From Flavobacterium ginsengisoli (GTDB lineage: Bacteria > Bacteroidota > Bacteroidia > Flavobacteriales > Flavobacteriaceae): a stretch of DNA of 64,000 nucleotides. The notes below the pieces were generated by a model that searched no databases, was not told the DNA's origin, and saw nothing but the letters and a program-made list of their open reading frames with translations. A program made the position numbers and the translations under genes. Positions 18,683 through 26,333 of this stretch are shown in pieces (position 1 is the first letter of the stretch; each line of letters opens with the position of its first letter). The stretch covers positions 4,368,501 to 4,432,500 of the forward strand of contig NZ_CP121110.1 of the NCBI RefSeq assembly GCF_029625315.1, given 5' to 3'.

Positions 18683-21094
18683 TTAGTTTTTTAGATACTT
18701 TTCTAAGAATTGATCTTGTTCCCAAAGCAAATGAAGAATGTTTTCTTTAGCAACATAGCTATGAGATTCTTTTGGCAAAATAACCATTCTAGCAGGCGCT
18801 CCTAAACCTTTTAATGCTTGAAAATAACGTTCTGTCTGCAAAGTAAAAGTTCCGGGATTGTTATCTGCTTCTCCGTGAACCAATAAAATCGGAGTTTTCA
18901 TTTTTTCTGCATTCATAAATGGAGACATTGCATTGTAAACTTCTGGAGCTTCCCAATAATTTCGTTGTTCAGATTGGAATCCGAATGGTGTTAGAGTTCT
19001 GTTGTAAGCACCACTTCTTGCAATTCCGCAAGCAAAAAGATCAGAATGCGTTAGTAAGTTTGCTGTCATAAAGGCTCCATACGAATGTCCTCCTACAGCT
19101 ACTTTTTTACGATTGATATAGCCTAAAGCGTCAACAGCGTCAATAGCCGCTGCTGCATTATCGACTAATTGCGAAATAAAGTTGTCGTTCGGTTCTGTAG
19201 TTCCCTCTCCAATAATCGGAAAAGCGGCATCGTCTAAAACCACATAGCCTTTTGTAACCCAATACACAAATGATCCGTAATAAGGAAAAGTGAATTCGTT
19301 TGAATTTTGAGTCGATTGAGAAGCGCTATTTCTATCTTTATATTCTGCTGGATAAGCCCAGATCAATAGCGGCAATTTTTCTTTTTTAGCTTTATCGTAA
19401 CCAGCAGGTAGATATAAAGTTCCTGAAAGTTCCAATCCATCCTTACGTTTGTATTTAATAACTTCTTTGCTAACGTCTTTAATGCTTTCAAACGGATTCT
19501 TGAAATCAGTAACTTGTGTTAAGCTGTTTTGTTTTTTAATATTTCTGAAATAGTAATTCGGATATTCTGTTTTTGACTGAATCATAACTAAGACTTTTCC
19601 AGACTTAAAATCTTCAATTTCTAAAATATCTTCTTTTTTATCTTTGTATGGAGAAGTATAAATGCGCTTTGATTTTAAAGTTTCCAGATTGAATTCGTCA
19701 ACAAAAGGGAATTGTCCATTTTTGGTATAACCCTCGCCAATTCTGTAAAGGTTATTTTTTTCGATAGCTAAAACATATTTGTTGTAGGCATTTTTTCTTG
19801 TTTCAAAAACTCCAGGATCAGAATAAACATCTTGAGAATTTCTGTCTGTGATTAATTTTGGCTGTTGATTTGGATTTGAAGGATTAATCAAAAATGTTTT
19901 GGTGTTTCTCGTATCATACCATTCTTCTGAAAGGACTGCTAAATTATCATTTCCCCAAGTAATGTCACTAAAACGTTGTGGTGTTTTTGCCAATGATGTT
20001 GCTTCTTTGTCAAAAGGTGCATCCCAAAGAAAAACTTCATCTCTAAAATCAACTTTGTTGGCAGGATCTCCTTCGTCTAAAGCTACAACATACGATAATG
20101 TCGCAGGTTTATCGTTTCTCCAAGCCATTTCTCTTTTTCCTTTTCGAACAGCCATAAAACCTTTTGGCATAATTTCGTTTAAAGGAACCTCGTTTACCGT
20201 TTTAATTTCTCTTCCGCTTAAATCGTAAACAACGGTTTTGAATGGAAATCTATTCAGAGGAACTACATAAGAAAATGGTTTTTGAATGGTAGTAAGCATA
20301 ATGTAATTACCATCTGGTGAGATTCTTTCTCCAGCAAACATAGCGGCATCTTTATACAAAACAGCATCACCATTTAGTTTTACTTTGTATAATTCAGAAG
20401 TTATGCAGTTTTCAAAATTAGTTTCGTCGTTTTTGTTTTTCAACATATCTGGATACGTTCTGTTTTGAGATTTTTCTCCCGAAGTATTTGAAATAATTGG
20501 CCCAGTAGGCAAATCTTTTTTAGAATCCAAAAGTGGCTGTCTGTTTTTAGGAAGCATTTTTACTAATATAGTTTCACTATCCAAAAACCAGTTAAACGGA
20601 TTTCCAAGGTTTGCATTTACTCTAGCCTCTGTAAGTTTTGTTGCTTGGGCAGTTGCCACATCCAAAACCCAAAGTTCAACACCCGAATTTGTAGTATGAG
20701 AGAATAAGATTTTTTTGTCGTTTGGTGACCAAAGAATATTTGTTATTTTCGGATTCTCAGGTAAGCCTTTAACTTGAATTTCTTCCTTTCCACTTATTTT
20801 TCTTAGTTTAAGATTGATCAAGTAAGTTGCTGTGCTTGAAATATTAGTAACAGGATTAATTCTTAAACCTGCCAGTTTAACTTCGTCTTGATTTAGATCT
20901 TCTAGCGTTTTATAAGTATTGCGATACATTAAGAGCATGTTCTCTTTTTTTGTATCCATAGATACCGAAGGAGGCCTTTGGTAATCTGCCAAATCTAAAA
21001 TAGATTTCGAAGGTTTTTGATAAACTAGATTCTCTTGAGCAAAAGAGAAAAAGCTTATGTTTAAAAATAAAAACAGCGTAACCTTTAATTTCAT
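18683..21094 (-). CDS. Secreted S9-family prolyl-oligopeptidase-like peptidase
   Basis: An 803-residue serine peptidase with a signal peptide (LFLFLNISFFSFAQ). The first roughly 550 residues form the beta-propeller with WSPNDKKILFSHT-type blades. The alpha/beta-hydrolase domain carries the nucleophile in GGHSYGAFMTANLL (Ser about 670), the acid in HGEADNNPGTF and the His in LPKESHSYVAKEN. The arrangement is that of the dipeptidyl/glutamyl-endopeptidase-like S9 proteins widespread in Bacteroidetes, which cleave peptides outside the cytoplasm. Exact P1 preference is not predictable. Monocistronic. Confidence 0.9.
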   Translation of the reverse strand: MKLKVTLFLFLNISFFSFAQENLVYQKPSKSILDLADYQRPPSVSMDTKKENMLLMYRNTYKTLEDLNQDEVKLAGLRINPVTNISSTATYLINLKLRKISGKEEIQVKGLPENPKITNILWSPNDKKILFSHTTNSGVELWVLDVATAQATKLTEARVNANLGNPFNWFLDSETILVKMLPKNRQPLLDSKKDLPTGPIISNTSGEKSQNRTYPDMLKNKNDETNFENCITSELYKVKLNGDAVLYKDAAMFAGERISPDGNYIMLTTIQKPFSYVVPLNRFPFKTVVYDLSGREIKTVNEVPLNEIMPKGFMAVRKGKREMAWRNDKPATLSYVVALDEGDPANKVDFRDEVFLWDAPFDKEATSLAKTPQRFSDITWGNDNLAVLSEEWYDTRNTKTFLINPSNPNQQPKLITDRNSQDVYSDPGVFETRKNAYNKYVLAIEKNNLYRIGEGYTKNGQFPFVDEFNLETLKSKRIYTSPYKDKKEDILEIEDFKSGKVLVMIQSKTEYPNYYFRNIKKQNSLTQVTDFKNPFESIKDVSKEVIKYKRKDGLELSGTLYLPAGYDKAKKEKLPLLIWAYPAEYKDRNSASQSTQNSNEFTFPYYGSFVYWVTKGYVVLDDAAFPIIGEGTTEPNDNFISQLVDNAAAAIDAVDALGYINRKKVAVGGHSYGAFMTANLLTHSDLFACGIARSGAYNRTLTPFGFQSEQRNYWEAPEVYNAMSPFMNAEKMKTPILLVHGEADNNPGTFTLQTERYFQALKGLGAPARMVILPKESHSYVAKENILHLLWEQDQFLEKYLKN

Positions 21095-21317
21095 AGTTTT
21101 AATTTTATGAGTTTATAAAATGGTATTCAAAATGTTTGTCTAATATACTTTTGTCTTGTTACAACTTGTATCTGATTTTTCATTTTTTTCAATATTTATG
21201 TCCGAAAATTGCCTTTTCAAGAAGTAAATGATTATAAGTTGCTTTAGAATTAAAATATATTAAATTGCTAATAACGAAAAAAATAGTATTTTGTGTACGT
21301 ATATTTTAAAGTATGCG

Positions 21318-21325
21318 TAAATTTG
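21318..21325 (+). promoter_or_regulatory. -7 box for fabH
   Basis: TAAATTTG, 32 bases before the ATG at 21358. The 263-base spacer 21095-21357 otherwise shows nothing but AT-rich sequence. Confidence 0.55.
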
Positions 21326-21357
21326 CAATCCAATTTTTTAATAAATAATAATAGATT

Positions 21358-22365
21358 ATGTATCATTCAAAAATAGCTGGTTTAGGATATTATGTTCCTT
21401 CTAATGTGGTGACTAACGATGATTTGTCTAAGATCATGGATACTAATGACGAGTGGATTCAGGAAAGAACAGGAATTCAAGAAAGAAGACACATTATCCG
21501 TGGAGAAGACACTACGACTTCAATGGGAGTAAAAGCGACTAAAATTGCAATCGAGCGTTCTGGTGTAGCCAAAGAAGATATTGATTTTGTAGTTTTTGCT
21601 ACCTTAAGCCCAGATTATTATTTTCCAGGCCCAGGTGTTTTGGTTCAAAGAGATTTAGGTCTAAGAACAGTTGGTGCATTAGATGTTAGAAATCAATGCT
21701 CAGGATTTGTTTACGCAATTTCTGTTGCAGATCAATATATCAAAACCGGAATGTATAAAAATATTTTGGTAATTGGTTCTGAGGTTCATTCTACAGGATT
21801 AGACATGACAACTCGCGGACGTGGAGTTTCTGTAATTTTTGGTGATGGAGCAGGAGCAGCAGTTTTAAGCCGTGAAGAAGATGTAACAAAAGGAATTTTA
21901 TCTACACATTTACATTCTGAAGGCCAGCATGCTGAAGAATTAGCATTGCAAGCACCAGGAATGGGAGCGCGTTGGGTAACAGACATTATTGCAGATAATG
22001 ATCCGAATGACGAAAGTTATTATCCTTATATGAATGGGCAGTTTGTATTTAAAAATGCTGTAGTTCGTTTTGCAGAAGTAATCAATGAAGGATTAGAAGC
22101 AAATGGTCTTCAGGTTTCAGATATCGATATGTTGATTCCGCATCAAGCAAACTTGAGAATTTCGCAGTTTATTCAAAATAAATTCAAATTGACAGACGAT
22201 CAAGTTCATAATAATATTCAGAAATACGGAAATACAACAGCTGCATCTATTCCGATTGCTTTAACTGAAGCTTGGGAAGAAGGAAAAATCAAATCTGGCG
22301 ATACTGTAGTTTTAGCAACCTTCGGAAGTGGATTTACTTGGGCAAGCGCTATTATTAAATGGTAA
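21358..22365 (+). CDS. fabH: 3-oxoacyl-ACP synthase III (FabH)
   Basis: A 335-residue thiolase-fold condensing enzyme that starts fatty-acid synthesis from acyl-CoA and malonyl-ACP. The catalytic triad is visible: Cys in DVRNQCSGFVYAI (about 119), His in IPHQANLRI (about 260) and Asn in YGNTTAASIPIAL (about 290). The GSGFTWASAII tail is typical. No other fab gene is adjacent. A strong terminator follows, so it is probably transcribed alone. Bacteroidetes often carry several KASIII paralogues with different acyl-CoA preference; which one this is cannot be told. Confidence 0.93.
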   Translation: MYHSKIAGLGYYVPSNVVTNDDLSKIMDTNDEWIQERTGIQERRHIIRGEDTTTSMGVKATKIAIERSGVAKEDIDFVVFATLSPDYYFPGPGVLVQRDLGLRTVGALDVRNQCSGFVYAISVADQYIKTGMYKNILVIGSEVHSTGLDMTTRGRGVSVIFGDGAGAAVLSREEDVTKGILSTHLHSEGQHAEELALQAPGMGARWVTDIIADNDPNDESYYPYMNGQFVFKNAVVRFAEVINEGLEANGLQVSDIDMLIPHQANLRISQFIQNKFKLTDDQVHNNIQKYGNTTAASIPIALTEAWEEGKIKSGDTVVLATFGSGFTWASAIIKW

Positions 22366-22388
22366 ATTAATTCATCTTACATTATATT

Positions 22389-22420
22389 TAGAACCTGCTT
22401 CTTATTGGGAGCAGGTTTTT
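22389..22420 (+). terminator. fabH terminator
   Basis: AACCTGCT-TCTTATTGGG-AGCAGGTT followed by TTTTT, 26 bases after the stop. Confidence 0.8.
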
Positions 22421-22432
22421 TTATACATATAT

Positions 22433-22498
22433 GTTAGGCTGAGCGGAGTCGAAGCTTACTTTCCGGTAGGAACGCCCTTCGACTCTGCTCAGTGGGAC
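22433..22498. repeat. Palindromic repeat A (GCGGAGTCGAAG family)
   Basis: Arms of about 16-18 bases, GGCTGAGCGGAGTCGAAG and CTTCGACTCTGCTCAG, flank a 22-base centre that holds an inner TTTCC-GGTA-GGAAC hairpin. The local GC content is far above that of the flanking DNA. It is the first of four related copies around the GIY-YIG gene. Confidence 0.85.
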
Positions 22499-22534
22499 AA
22501 AACTTTGACGATTGTATGTGATGGATTTCTATTT

Positions 22535-22576
22535 GTCAGGCTGGGCGGAGTCGAAGCCCACATTCCAATTGGCACG
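22535..22576 (+). repeat. Palindromic repeat B, right arm missing
   Basis: GTCAGGCTGGGCGGAGTCG, then the AAGCCCA and ATTCCAATTGGCACG centre as in copies A and C. The expected CTTCGACTCC right arm is replaced by the AT-rich leader of the GIY-YIG gene. Confidence 0.8.
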
Positions 22577-22637
22577 TTCTTTTATTTAATGATTTGAATT
22601 AAATTTCTTACTTTTATTTTTTTTGAAAATAAAAACT

Positions 22638-22961
22638 ATGAAAAGATATTACGTTTATATTTTGAAATGCTCCGATGGAAGTTATTACACAGGAATGACA
22701 AATGATATAAATAGGAGACTAAATGAACATAATTATGGCTTGAATAAAGAAAGTTACACTTTTGAAAAAAGACCTTTAGAGTTAGTGTTTTGCACTGAGT
22801 TTAATGATGTTATCCAAGCTATCGCATTTGAAAAGCAAGTAAAAGGCTGGAGCAGAAAAAAGAAAGAAGCTATAATAAAAGATAAATGGGAGGACTTGAA
22901 AAAACTTTCTCAATGTTTGAATAAAACAACTCATGAAAATTTTAATAAAAAGGATGTTTAA
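22638..22961 (+). CDS. Solitary GIY-YIG domain nuclease
   Basis: A 107-residue single-domain protein. I chose the ATG at 22638 (MKRYYVYILKCSDG) over the TTG at 22623, because the GIY-YIG strand starts there. The signature is YYVYIL...YYTGMT (about 4-21), the catalytic Arg lies in INRRLNEHNYG, and the metal-binding Glu in AFEKQVKGWSRKKKEAI (about 69-85). This is the UvrC-N/UPF0213-like class, shorter than homing endonucleases. It is framed by palindromic repeats, two on each side (22433, 22535; 23007, 23102), and nothing else lies between them. That placement resembles repeat-associated transposase loci, but a mobility role is inference. Confidence 0.9.
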   Translation: MKRYYVYILKCSDGSYYTGMTNDINRRLNEHNYGLNKESYTFEKRPLELVFCTEFNDVIQAIAFEKQVKGWSRKKKEAIIKDKWEDLKKLSQCLNKTTHENFNKKDV

Positions 22962-23006
22962 TAGTAAATTAGCAGTCGATTTTGCTCAGTAGAATACAAG
23001 CGACTT

Positions 23007-23072
23007 GTCAGGCTGAGCGGAGTCGAAGCCCACGTTCCAATAGGAGCGCCCTTCGACTCCGCTCAGGGTGAC
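23007..23072. repeat. Palindromic repeat C (best-preserved copy)
   Basis: The arms are 22 bases each: GTCA-GG-CTGAGCGGAGTCGAAG and its inverse ending CTCAG-GG-TGAC, differing only at the GG/CC step. The centre holds CGTTCC-AATA-GGAGCG as an inner hairpin. It is followed 30 bases later by a degenerate half copy. Confidence 0.9.
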
Positions 23073-23101
23073 AAAGATTGAACTTAATTGTTTTAAAGTT
23101 T

Positions 23102-23125
23102 GTGAGGCTGAGTGAAATAGAAGCC
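23102..23125 (+). repeat. Degenerate half repeat D
   Basis: GTGAGGCTGAGTGAAATAGAAG is a decayed left arm of the same family, 18 bases before cutC. Confidence 0.6.
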
Positions 23126-23142
23126 CTTTTAATAAAATCAAA

Positions 23143-23815
23143 ATGAAAAAAAATCAACTAGAAATAGCTTGTTTTAATTATGAATCGGCATTGATTGCTC
23201 AGGCAAACGGTGCAGATAGAATTGAGCTATGTGAAAATATGAAACTGGGAGGAACTACTCCAAATTCTATTTTGGTAGTAAAAGTTCGCGAAAGCATAAA
23301 TATAAAAATGCATGTTATCATTAGGCCTCGTGGCGGAGATTTTGTTTATTCTGATGAAGAACTCACAGAAATGAAACAAGACATAAAACAATATAAAAAA
23401 CTAGGTGTTGACGGTTTTGTTTTCGGAATTCTAAAAGAAAACGGAAAAATAAATAAAAAGCAGAATAAAGAATTGGTTCATTTAGCGCATCCGCTTTCAT
23501 GTACTTTTCATCGTGCTTTTGATGTGGTTAAAAATCCAGAAAAGTCACTAGAATCTGTTATAGACTGTGGTTTTAAAACTATTTTGACTTCCGGTCAAGG
23601 AGTAAATGTCGAAGAAGGAATTCTCGCTTTAGAAAGACTTCAGGAATTGGCAGGAGATAGAATTGAGATTATGCCAGGTGGTGGTTTACGGTCTTCCAAC
23701 ATCAAATTGCTCGCAAGAAAAATTAGATCTTACTTTTTATCATTCTTCAGCAATTACAGATAATTCTGAAACTGCAAATCCAGAAGAAATAAAAGAACTG
23801 TGTAATTTTTTATAA
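23143..23815 (+). pseudogene. cutC: Copper homeostasis protein CutC, frameshifted near the 3' end
   Basis: A TIM-barrel protein of the CutC family: IACFNYESALIAQANGADR, ELCENMKLGGTTPN, IRPRGGDFVYS, FHRAFDVVKNPEKSLE, ILTSGQG and MPGGGLRSSNIK are all present. The ATG frame stops at 23763 after non-homologous residues (SYFLSFFSNYR). Removing one A from the A5 run at 23718-23722 restores the family's C-terminus, FYHSSAITDNSETANPEEIK, to a stop at 23813-23815. CutC was linked to copper tolerance in E. coli, but its exact role is disputed. The indel is probably a sequence error, since everything else is intact. The start lies 18 bases after repeat D. Confidence 0.88.
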
Positions 23816-23828
23816 GTTTAATAAAACA

Positions 23829-23866
23829 AAAAAAGTCTGGAGGTGGCAATCTCCAGACTTTTTTTC
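23829..23866. terminator. Bidirectional terminator
   Basis: AAAAAGTCTGGAG-GTGGCAAT-CTCCAGACTTTTTTT between the convergent cutC and outer-membrane receptor genes. Confidence 0.85.
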
Positions 23867-23915
23867 TACAAGAAATTATTCAAAAATTATTTAAAAAAAA
23901 TCTTTTTAGGTAAGA

Positions 23916-26333
23916 TTAGAACATTCCACCCCCACCTTTATTAGTATTATCTTCTCTTTGTTTACGCTGTAAGTTTTTGATTTTTCCTCCTCCAAAGTTG
24001 TAAGTCAAACCTAAATAAACCGTTCTGCTTTCCCAAGAAAACTGACCTGTTTGAGGATAAGGATAAATTCCATCAAAAGCATATTTCATTGTCTTGAAAA
24101 CATCATTAAAACGTACGCTAATGTTCATTTTGTTGTCTAGCAATGTGTAACGTGAACCAATATCCATTTTGTACATTTCATGTCGATTTTGCTGAACATC
24201 TTCAACAGGTCCTCTGTAAAAACCAAATAGCAAGAAACTTAAGCGTTTTGTAGGTTTAAAGTTAGAGTTCATACGAGCGTTAAAAGCTGTAGTTGTTACG
24301 CTACGTTCAAGAGGTGAACTTGTGCTAGTTGCTGGATCAAATTCAAATACAATACCTTGTTGTTTAATGCTCGAAAAGTCGATAGACGGTTGAATATCCC
24401 ACCATTTTGTCAATTTATAATTTAACGAAACATCAAAACCATAAGCACTATTGTGATCATAATTTGTATAGCTCAAGATTTGTTTGTATCCAGACGGATC
24501 ATTTGGATCTGGACTCAATGTTCTGCTTATTTGATCATTAATGCTTCTTACATAAACACCTGCAGTAACACTTCCTTTTTCAAGTGTTTTAGTATAATTA
24601 ACCTCTACCGAATTTGTAAACTGAGGTCTTAATTCAGGATTTCCATATGAAGTTACTAATGGAGTTGAGAATTCACGAATTGGCTTAGTTTGCTCTATAC
24701 TTGGACGGTCAACACGACGGCTATAGCTAAATTGAAGAACATTTTTTTCATTCAAATTATATGTCAAATAAGCAGATGGATATAAAGTAATATAATCATC
24801 ATTAAACTTATCTTGGCCGTGGTTTAAATTAGCTTGAACTTTATAGCTCTCAAAACGAGTTCCTAATTGGTAACTGAATTTCTTGAATTTTTGACCAAAA
24901 GTCACATAAGCCGAATAAATATCAGTATCGTAAGTATAATTTGAAACTCGTTCGTCAATAGGAACTAAAGGATTACCGGTATTATAATCATTATTTGTTC
25001 TAGTAATTCTAGCTTCTGCACCAGCTTCAAGCGTGGTTTTGTCATTTAATGGATTTACATAATCAACATTTATTGTGCTCAATTTTCTTTGATCACCAAT
25101 TTGATCGCTATAAATTACACTATTTGAAGTGTTATCAGGTCTTGTTGTATTAGTATCAAAACTTGCATTTTGGTCTGATTTCGTATCACTGTAATTACCT
25201 TCAAAATCTAAAGTATGTCCTTCTTTTTTGAAAATATGTTTGTATGCCAAATTGTAAGTTCCAGTTTTTGTTGGCCCTTTGTAAAGTGAATTTTGGTAAA
25301 TGTTTAAAATATCTGGATCGCCATTGTTGTAATCGATATTAGTAATTACATTTCCGTTTCCAGTTGATTTATTTTGATTGGTATAGAAAGACAAAGTGTT
25401 TTTGTCATTAATTAAATAATCCATTCCTAACTTATATAAGTAATTATCATTTTCGTTAGAAATTTTCAAATTTTGTTCTACATCCTGATCCAATCTTAAG
25501 ATTCTACCTTTGTTATAATACGTTCCAAAGTTTTGTCCTCCATTTCCAAAGAAGTTTACTTTTCCAGTTTTGTAGTTCAAATCAAGCGATTGATTGTATT
25601 TTGCCGTTTCGCCAAAAGTAATACCTCCGCTATAGCTTCCGTTAAAACCAGTGTTTGCACTTTTATGCAATACAATATTAATAATTCCAGACATTCCTTC
25701 TGGATTGTATTTTGCACTTGGGTTTGTAATTAACTCAATTTTTTTGATAGAAGTTGATGGAATTTGTTTCAATAATTGAGCTGGATCAATGTTCGATGGA
25801 CGGCCGTCAATTAATACACGTACATTGTCATTTCCGCGAAGCGAAAGTTTTCCGTCCTGATCTACATTTACAGATGGAATATTGCTCATAATGTCAGATG
25901 CAGAAGCTCCAGCAGTTGTTAAATCTTTACCAACAGTAATTACTTTACGATCAATTTTTTGTTCAATTGTTGAACGTTCAGCAACTATATTTACACCTTT
26001 TAACTGAGTCGCTTCTTCTTCAAGAGCAACATTTACGGTTGCTGTTTTTCTGTTTTCGCTTAAAATTACAGAACCAATATATTTCTTGAATCCGATATAT
26101 TGAATTTCTATTGTGTAATTTTTTAAAGCAATGTTTTTAAATGAAAAGTCTCCGTTGTCATCTGTATTTACTCCAGAAACTACTTTTCCATTTTCTTTAA
26201 GCGAAACAGTTGCATAAGAAATCGGCGCGTTGTTCGACTTTTCTGTAATTTTTCCAGAAATACTTCCAGTATTCTGGGCTTGTGCAGTTGCGATTATACC
26301 TAATAACGCAAACAGAAAGAATTTTAATTTCAT
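23916..26333 (-). CDS. TonB-dependent-receptor-like outer-membrane beta-barrel protein
   Basis: An 805-residue outer-membrane protein with a signal peptide (LFALLGIIATAQAQ). Residues about 22-105 are a carboxypeptidase-regulatory-like domain (SGKITEKSNNAPISYATVSL, GDFSFKNIALKNYTIEIQY). A plug domain of about 115-220 follows (ASASDIMSNIPSVNVD, LIDGRPSNID, PSAKYNPEGMSGIINIVL), then an OMP_b-brl_3-type barrel. The C-terminus is Gly/Lys/Asn-rich instead of ending in an aromatic. The substrate is unknown and no SusD partner is adjacent. Monocistronic, with a long AT-rich leader before it. Confidence 0.88.
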   Translation of the reverse strand: MKLKFFLFALLGIIATAQAQNTGSISGKITEKSNNAPISYATVSLKENGKVVSGVNTDDNGDFSFKNIALKNYTIEIQYIGFKKYIGSVILSENRKTATVNVALEEEATQLKGVNIVAERSTIEQKIDRKVITVGKDLTTAGASASDIMSNIPSVNVDQDGKLSLRGNDNVRVLIDGRPSNIDPAQLLKQIPSTSIKKIELITNPSAKYNPEGMSGIINIVLHKSANTGFNGSYSGGITFGETAKYNQSLDLNYKTGKVNFFGNGGQNFGTYYNKGRILRLDQDVEQNLKISNENDNYLYKLGMDYLINDKNTLSFYTNQNKSTGNGNVITNIDYNNGDPDILNIYQNSLYKGPTKTGTYNLAYKHIFKKEGHTLDFEGNYSDTKSDQNASFDTNTTRPDNTSNSVIYSDQIGDQRKLSTINVDYVNPLNDKTTLEAGAEARITRTNNDYNTGNPLVPIDERVSNYTYDTDIYSAYVTFGQKFKKFSYQLGTRFESYKVQANLNHGQDKFNDDYITLYPSAYLTYNLNEKNVLQFSYSRRVDRPSIEQTKPIREFSTPLVTSYGNPELRPQFTNSVEVNYTKTLEKGSVTAGVYVRSINDQISRTLSPDPNDPSGYKQILSYTNYDHNSAYGFDVSLNYKLTKWWDIQPSIDFSSIKQQGIVFEFDPATSTSSPLERSVTTTAFNARMNSNFKPTKRLSFLLFGFYRGPVEDVQQNRHEMYKMDIGSRYTLLDNKMNISVRFNDVFKTMKYAFDGIYPYPQTGQFSWESRTVYLGLTYNFGGGKIKNLQRKQREDNTNKGGGGMF

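Follow-up and report, generated by a model that had tools for sequence, protein, structure and literature searches.

The window studied here is a stretch of 64,000 nucleotides (positions 4368501-4432500 of contig C1) in the genome of Flavobacterium ginsengisoli (G000), a single contig of 5.41 Mb whose close relatives are other Flavobacterium. A small nuclease gene and a group of tagged palindromes form a block in the gap between two host genes. The features of this block and its neighbours, in window positions, are the following:

21358..22365, plus strand: left neighbour, a host gene, fabH-like 3-oxoacyl-ACP synthase III (open reading frame)
22432..22501, no strand: repeat A, a dimer of two TGTC-type half-sites with the tags outermost (palindrome listing)
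22534..22556, plus strand: repeat B, a single half-site (palindrome listing and core match)
22638..22961, plus strand: GIY-YIG nuclease gene, 107 aa, UPF0213-like (PF01541 match)
22973..22996, minus strand: worn half-site directly 3' of the GIY-YIG gene (by eye)
23006..23073, no strand: repeat C, an intact dimer with the tags outermost (palindrome listing and core match)
23101..23125, plus strand: repeat D, a worn half-site at the end of the block, 17 nt 5' of cutC (sequence)
23143..23763, plus strand: right neighbour, a host gene, cutC-like (open reading frame)

The left neighbour, which we take to be a fabH-like 3-oxoacyl-ACP synthase III gene, and the right neighbour, presumably cutC-like, were named from the preliminary description of this DNA. 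In the relatives the fabH orthologue borders filled and empty sites alike. The cutC relatives match over residues 1 to ~198 and have open frames of 223 to 241 aa; the window cutC (23143-23763) appears to be frameshifted near its end, with a stop at 206 and a tail unrelated to those of the relatives.

Each palindrome consists of two half-sites with the tags outermost, and in a half-site a short stem comes directly after the TGTC tag. Repeat A belongs to a unit of ~102 bp (22428-22529) that is missing from a genome of the same species (G088, locus L006). The arms of repeat C are 24 nt long, 92% complementary and spaced 22 nt apart. A half-site 15 to 19 nt 3' of the gene is matched in nine of 28 orthologous loci, where it is better kept than at 22973-22996 in the window; at the position of repeat D, too, several relatives carry a better-kept half-site (by eye). 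Searching with the core GGCTGAGCGGAGTCGAAG at up to three mismatches gave five matches in the window, all in the block, and none in 100 shuffles; repeat D is too worn to count among the five. This bears out the preliminary description, which had placed repeats A to D two on each side of the GIY-YIG gene and nowhere else in the window. Its list of copies is correct in all four entries and incomplete, as the worn minus-strand half-site at 22973-22996 was overlooked, and confinement to the block does not imply rarity, as there are 42 to 77 copies genome-wide. With the block included, 42 sites in G000 lie within two mismatches of the core and 77 within three mismatches of a longer pattern; the reversed pattern gave 0 in both searches. 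Elsewhere in G000, 32 of 49 half-sites fall outside any open frame of at least 80 codons. An Rfam search of 21000-24500 returned two weak matches, both outside the block and neither at the gathering score.

The 107-aa protein matches the GIY-YIG family (PF01541, E 6e-19) and a UPF0213 structure (PDB 1zg2, E 5e-16). Residues Y7, Y17, G19, R27, H31, E65, K69 and K76 are conserved (90 loci; 30 alignment rows), and the domain has the conserved catalytic Tyr, Arg and Glu of the GIY-YIG superfamily. The structure model has a pLDDT of 85.5, and after re-alignment of Foldseek's top chains the structural matches ranked 1 to 18 were GIY-YIG-type proteins. The median dN/dS is 0.06 over 137 gene pairs, indicating strong purifying selection; the 137 were kept from 231 pairs for a dS between 0.1 and 1.5, and the set excludes L017, L022, L028, L029, L030 and L046, as well as L027, which has an internal stop. 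NCBIfam and PADLOC gave no family for the locus, and we know of no function or repeats for the UPF0213 proteins of PDB 1zg2 and 1ywl. G000 has five GIY-YIG matches. Three paralogues carry three repeat types, and loci L004 and L005 are without such repeats. The minus-strand GIY-YIG match in L004 (1364-1794) is flanked by two identical 65-bp copies of an apparent tRNA end and terminator. Broken nuclease genes were found in L027 (5001-5321, internal stop) and as fragments in G060 (C20:113160-113475), a genome with few repeats (12 exact). Pairs of GIY-YIG genes with equal scores, within ~1.2 kb of each other, occur at G134:C46:8354-9404, G047:C63:96737-97942 and G139:C1:1774336-1775580; the pairs in G134 and G047 (L177 and L183) stand amid many repeats.

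A protein search gave 51 loci, 28 of which (L006-L032 and L046) are close orthologues, two of these being assigned only to Flavobacteriaceae. All 28 have a repeat within 200 bases of the gene and 27 have repeats (up to two mismatches) on both sides; in these loci of 5.8 to 10.3 kb no repeat lies farther than ~1 kb from the gene. The pairing first suspected from the window alone, with a GIY-YIG gene where a RAYT would stand amid REP-like palindromes, is thus supported as real and widespread. Close homologues without repeats nearby had been named beforehand as evidence against a link, and the 28 orthologues provide none; repeats in genomes lacking the gene had also been named, and these do exist in 16 genomes (see below), which weakens the original idea in part.

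More distant homologues adjoin other palindromes, mostly TGTC-tagged and spelled differently. Twenty or more recurring repeat bases lie no farther than 600 bases from the gene in 20/20, 16/20 and 22/23 loci of three sets, and windows of the same shape elsewhere in the same loci reached that level in 31/447, 56/509 and 110/792 cases; L002-L005 contributed no control windows because the loci are short. Each of the first two sets takes 20 regions in a row from the gene list of the genus Flavobacterium, with paired copies merged. The third (L033-L055) spans Flavobacteriia, Niabella and another member of Chitinophagaceae, Nitrospina, Nitrospinae, Poribacteria, Nitrospirae, Anaerolineales, Melioribacteraceae and a Rickettsia endosymbiont, and its sole miss is a Nitrospirae locus (L049). 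Since this set includes the orthologue L046, the further homologues with recurring repeats number 57 of 62. The five without an exact recurring 15-mer are L049, L192, L194, L198 and L199, and four of them bear two inexact tagged half-sites. In L055, L172, L187 and L195 some control windows equal the gene's own window. Among the recurring 15-mers the opening tetramer is most often TGTC, seen at this position in 50 of the 57 loci with such 15-mers (of 62 examined) against a background of 22.8; ranked by its excess over that background, TGTC comes after GTCA, a one-step shift of the same letters, in second place. Among the literature matches listed, no title or abstract start links a GIY-YIG gene to these repeats, and searching with the repeat letters returned no paper. 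The accessible part of a GIY-YIG phylogenomics study (PMC1564403) has no mention of COG2827, UPF0213 or 'palindrom'.

The anatomy of the repeat was derived from 175 half-sites (163 distinct) in the window and the 28 orthologous loci. TGTC is kept at 92 to 98% per base and the preceding T at 72%, and conservation fades further upstream. Behind the tag, the two letters before CT and the two after AG are Watson-Crick paired in 153/163 and 120/163 half-sites, compared with maxima of 84 and 94 in shuffles that ignore the kinship of repeat copies; G-C, C-G and T-A pairs are mixed, the letters changing together in compensating fashion. The third and fourth positions outward are paired in 28/163 and 39/163 half-sites, the same as shuffled. 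In the 31 other loci of G000 the same two pairs are Watson-Crick in 45/49 and 45/49 half-sites (maxima 32 and 30). The change can be seen directly at one shared site, where three genomes have CCCT..AGGG and G008 has GTTC..GAAC. Repeat C has GG..CC in its left half and CC..GG in its right half, so these letters are unpaired in the long hairpin, and they stay open in the computed fold. The letters covary inside each half-site. Dimers fold strongly: a 70-nt stretch with dimer C, folded as DNA, gave -27.6 kcal/mol (z -9.1). Most of ten single half-sites folded no better than shuffles and several adopted another register; a half-site of the window's family folds at about -2 kcal/mol, and a dRS3-like single half-site beats its shuffles at -8.9 kcal/mol (z -4.2). 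The stem thus rests on covariation.

When distinct half-sites were picked from all families, the tag was directly followed by a stem of 4 bp or more in 54 of 69 (7.8 expected). Because these picks required a TGTC or CGTC start, the tag was tested by the 15-mer tetramer count instead. The window family has an uninterrupted stem of ~4 bp and a loop of 12 nt, and stems of 7 to 9 bp were seen only in L055, L188, L192 and L194 among the 69 picks. The half-sites at the distant homologues L188, L192 and L194 look similar to dRS3. In the 31 other G000 loci, 14 have dimers with the tags outermost, two have the tags inside and 15 have no opposed pair within 80 bases.

Protein distances correlate with repeat distances (r 0.73 over 90 loci, 0.81 over 69 Flavobacterium-type loci and 0.65 over 42 loci with orthologues collapsed; 0/5000 permutations each). 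The three sets are nested and use 90 of 93 loci, L046 and L051 being left out for matches that were too short and L199 for having no recurring half-site. In six genomes, eight pairs of paralogues have half-sites that differ by an edit distance of 5 to 11. When the comparison is made with the nearest protein from a different genome, the half-site is identical in 6/13 cases, one of which (L006) is from the same species, and within three edits in 10/13; the exceptions are L003, L182 and L188 (edit distances 11, 8 and 5). It was concluded that repeat type varies with the protein rather than with the host genome. In G000 the second repeat type has three exact copies, all at the paralogue at 4747115, and four of the 17 copies of the repeat of the paralogue at 2152364 lie within 500 bases of it. 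One copy of the first type is located 243 bases before the third paralogue. At two to three mismatches the second type has 42 other sites, most of them an abundant variant with no nuclease found beside it; these ~40 TGTCATTTCGACGAAGGAGAAATCTC-like half-sites, e.g., at C1:285438-285536, make up a repeat family with no known partner in G000.

From these comparisons of sequence we think it quite probable that the small GIY-YIG endonuclease, UPF0213-like in type, forms a cognate pair with a TGTC-tagged family of REP half-sites of its own. A system of this type has reportedly been described in Neisseria by Chenal, Veyrier and colleagues, where the GIY-YIG nuclease Ssn is matched to dispersed NTS repeats. 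Ssn is said to recognise the repeat and to act on single-stranded DNA there, cutting one strand near it, and to have a role in limiting natural transformation. At the level of general features, the likeness lies in a small, lone GIY-YIG protein with dispersed cognate palindromic repeats. The window system differs in the stem and loop of its half-sites, in having arrays on both sides of the gene and in having three paralogue-repeat pairs in one genome. By analogy, the window pair is probably a matched nuclease/REP pair of the Ssn kind that cuts folded single strands, and it would be a further case of the Ssn/NTS kind, the closest one known to us. The prior Ssn work lowers the surprise of the finding because it probably established the kind.

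The following route may be envisaged. Where DNA becomes single-stranded (on the lagging strand, on uptake from outside or during repair), half-sites could fold into tagged hairpins. The enzyme would recognise the tag together with the hairpin and cut one strand near the tag, as is reported for Ssn. Cutting and repair would then allow the repeats to be copied, arrays would grow and shrink by units of ~102 bp, and recombination within the genes on either side could add or remove the whole gene-repeat block. Such a pair may serve the cell, through control of incoming DNA, or be selfish. Of these steps we infer the folding of single strands, the cutting at the tag and the copying of repeats; the association with the gene, the specificity, the covariation of the stem and the purifying selection are observed.

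The locus had initially been called unclassified. That label does not hold, as the repeats resemble CGTC/TGTC-tagged REPs and the pair resembles the Ssn/NTS system. CGTC-tagged REPs were described by Di Nocera and others (2013) and include dRS3 and the Rickettsia RPE, with Bacteroidetes among the hosts; according to that paper (PMC3733652) they have stems of 8-9 bp and loops of 4-5, a tag that is often TGTC and dimers mostly with the tags outside, and they are said to lack a dedicated transposase or enzyme. The window family shares with them the order of tag and stem-loop, the genome-wide dispersal and the prevalence of tags-outside dimers (14 vs. 2), but its stem is shorter and its loop longer than the 8-9 bp and 4-5 given there (PMC3733652), and it has a GIY-YIG gene as partner where none is named for those REPs. 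REPtrons, as presented in PMC8266576, combine a RAYT (TnpA-REP), an HuH tyrosine transposase, with GTAG-tagged REPs. Like the window system, they have a nuclease gene bordered by its own tagged, dispersed palindromes and co-evolving with them; the difference is HuH and a GTAG tag there vs. GIY-YIG and a TGTC tag here (PMC8266576). A RAYT or Y1 transposase was considered as the enzyme of the window repeats and rejected: the flanked gene is a GIY-YIG gene, and 0/5 Y1 transposase loci in G000 have repeats of families 1 to 3 in the 3.2-3.3 kb covered at each. A longer repeat (CCCC..GCTGGCGCGAGCGTCC-like) is present near a GIY-YIG match in L005 (2373-3038) and near a Y1 transposase match in L209 (1008-2977).

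The close gene (E 1e-45 or better) is found in 17 of 199 genomes of the genus, and each of the 17 has at least 23 exact copies of the 16-base core. Among the 182 genomes without a close gene, 16 have at least 12 exact cores, one has 10 and 117 have none. These 16 genomes, without an intact close gene, hold 12 to 142 exact copies. We had expected more repeats in gene-bearing genomes; this was rejected, as the 17 and the 16 genomes do not differ in copy number (medians 77 vs. 80.5, p 0.77) or in the intact share of repeats (0.62 vs. 0.62, p 0.61), both compared with relatedness uncorrected. That gene presence predicts neither count nor intactness may reflect recent loss of the gene, an enzyme dispensable for upkeep of the repeats or some other factor.

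Turnover was followed within the species in one genome, Flavobacterium sp. IB48 (G088), which contains L006. The ~102-bp unit beside the gene has been gained or lost, being present in G000 and missing in G088. G088 also has a second dimer that is identical over ~71 bp, starting just before the tag, to another dimer 3.7 kb off; the flanks differ. G000 lacks this second dimer and bears a different palindrome at the site, so that no clean insertion or target duplication is seen. In L214 (5990-6370) and L210 (8930-9170), a larger palindrome (GCCACAGATT...AATCTGTGGC) has TGTC-tagged dimers in its loop, and a related outer palindrome without a dimer is present at the same site in G000. Two other G088 repeats were picked as possible insertions within the species and rejected, since both are shared with G000. 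G006 has one of the two at the corresponding position, as does G008 in altered form, and G015 carries a dimer there. The differences between G088 and G000 look like signs of turnover, not proof of transposition. One alternative is RAYT-like dispersal, in which the nuclease drives, or once drove, the copying of dimers and the flanked gene is the source locus; it would be a second REP-spreading route besides RAYTs. The 42-77 genome copies, the tags-outermost dimers at 14 of 31 loci, the twin dimers of G088, the unit gained or lost within the species and the equal-score gene pairs in G134, G047 and G139 are all consistent with such copying. But copy number is independent of gene presence, the second G088 site offers no clean insertion, and the two supposed G088-specific repeats are shared with G000. 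We regard dispersal by the nuclease as possible and somewhat doubtful.

A service to the host can be entertained in similarly tentative terms. Here the genome-wide repeats would be landmarks, and the nuclease, by analogy with Ssn, would cut incoming single-stranded DNA and so limit or edit natural transformation. The low dN/dS of the gene and the stems kept by compensation genome-wide would fit such a role. That the whole block is often lost or exchanged speaks against a service of importance: a tree of fabH-cutC (27 filled and 16 empty rows) has 12 changes between the filled and the empty state, at least 10 of them forced by well-supported branches. On this tree filled and empty sites cluster no more than shuffled labels do (151/500 as low).

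All 27 filled fabH-cutC gaps have a core match at two mismatches. In each of the 16 gene-lacking, repeat-rich genomes fabH-cutC is retained with neither the gene nor a core match, at up to four mismatches, in the gap; empty sites were drawn only from genomes with at least 12 copies. Neighbourhoods without the insert, which the preliminary description had suggested looking for, therefore exist, and the repeats are missing from them together with the gene. At the empty sites L063, L064, L069 and L071 the gap holds other tagged palindromes, TGTCATTGCGAGGAACGAAGCAATCTC- and TGTCATTTCGACG-like (by eye). If the gene and its outer repeats were an autonomous IS-like transposon with the repeats as its ends, one could account for the coincidence of block edges with half-sites in many filled loci (by eye), for fabH-cutC sites both with and without the block, for the different location of the gene in L031 and L032, loci that have neither fabH nor cutC, and for the fragments in G060, which are on a different contig from cutC. 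We consider this improbable. Of the 29 gene loci that were compared, 27 share one position, the distances of gene and flanks are correlated (r 0.68, 0/2000 permutations), and the 16 empty gaps carry other sequence (by eye), not the clean empty site and target duplication of an insertion sequence. Because the empty sites share this other sequence, allele exchange by flanking recombination would fit better than clean excision. The L046 gene is at a distance of 0.128 from that of L029 while its flanks are at best 0.206 from any others, which suggests transfer of the block. These distances and the tree point to mainly vertical inheritance of the block, accompanied by repeated loss or allele exchange. 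The proposal of a short mobile unit is accordingly not supported in its original form: gene-lacking genomes have as many and equally intact repeats, inheritance is largely vertical and no clean insertion was seen. It is very improbable that the gene is a bystander among REPs that gather in intergenic space as terminators or mRNA stabilisers, since, although the dimers fold well and most half-sites in G000 (32/49) are outside long open frames, the repeats are missing from the same gap when the gene is missing (16/16), the repeat type tracks the protein rather than the genome and control windows seldom hold such repeats.

We thus return to a cognate nuclease and repeat pair as the preferred reading of the fabH-cutC block. 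A broader proposal, which we offer with reserve and would not call likely, is that GIY-YIG nucleases of this type are the missing enzymes of CGTC/TGTC-tagged REPs in many phyla, forming lineage-matched, co-evolving pairs, several per genome without crossing, in which the nuclease copies and maintains the repeats. If true, this would be a REP-spreading system independent of RAYTs. For a class of repeats that is widespread in bacteria, the pairing puts forward a candidate enzyme for each family. A single genome offers matched and mismatched protein-repeat pairs for comparison in vitro, and, if cutting is specific, the paralogue-repeat pairs would be a ready set of sequence-specific single-strand nucleases.
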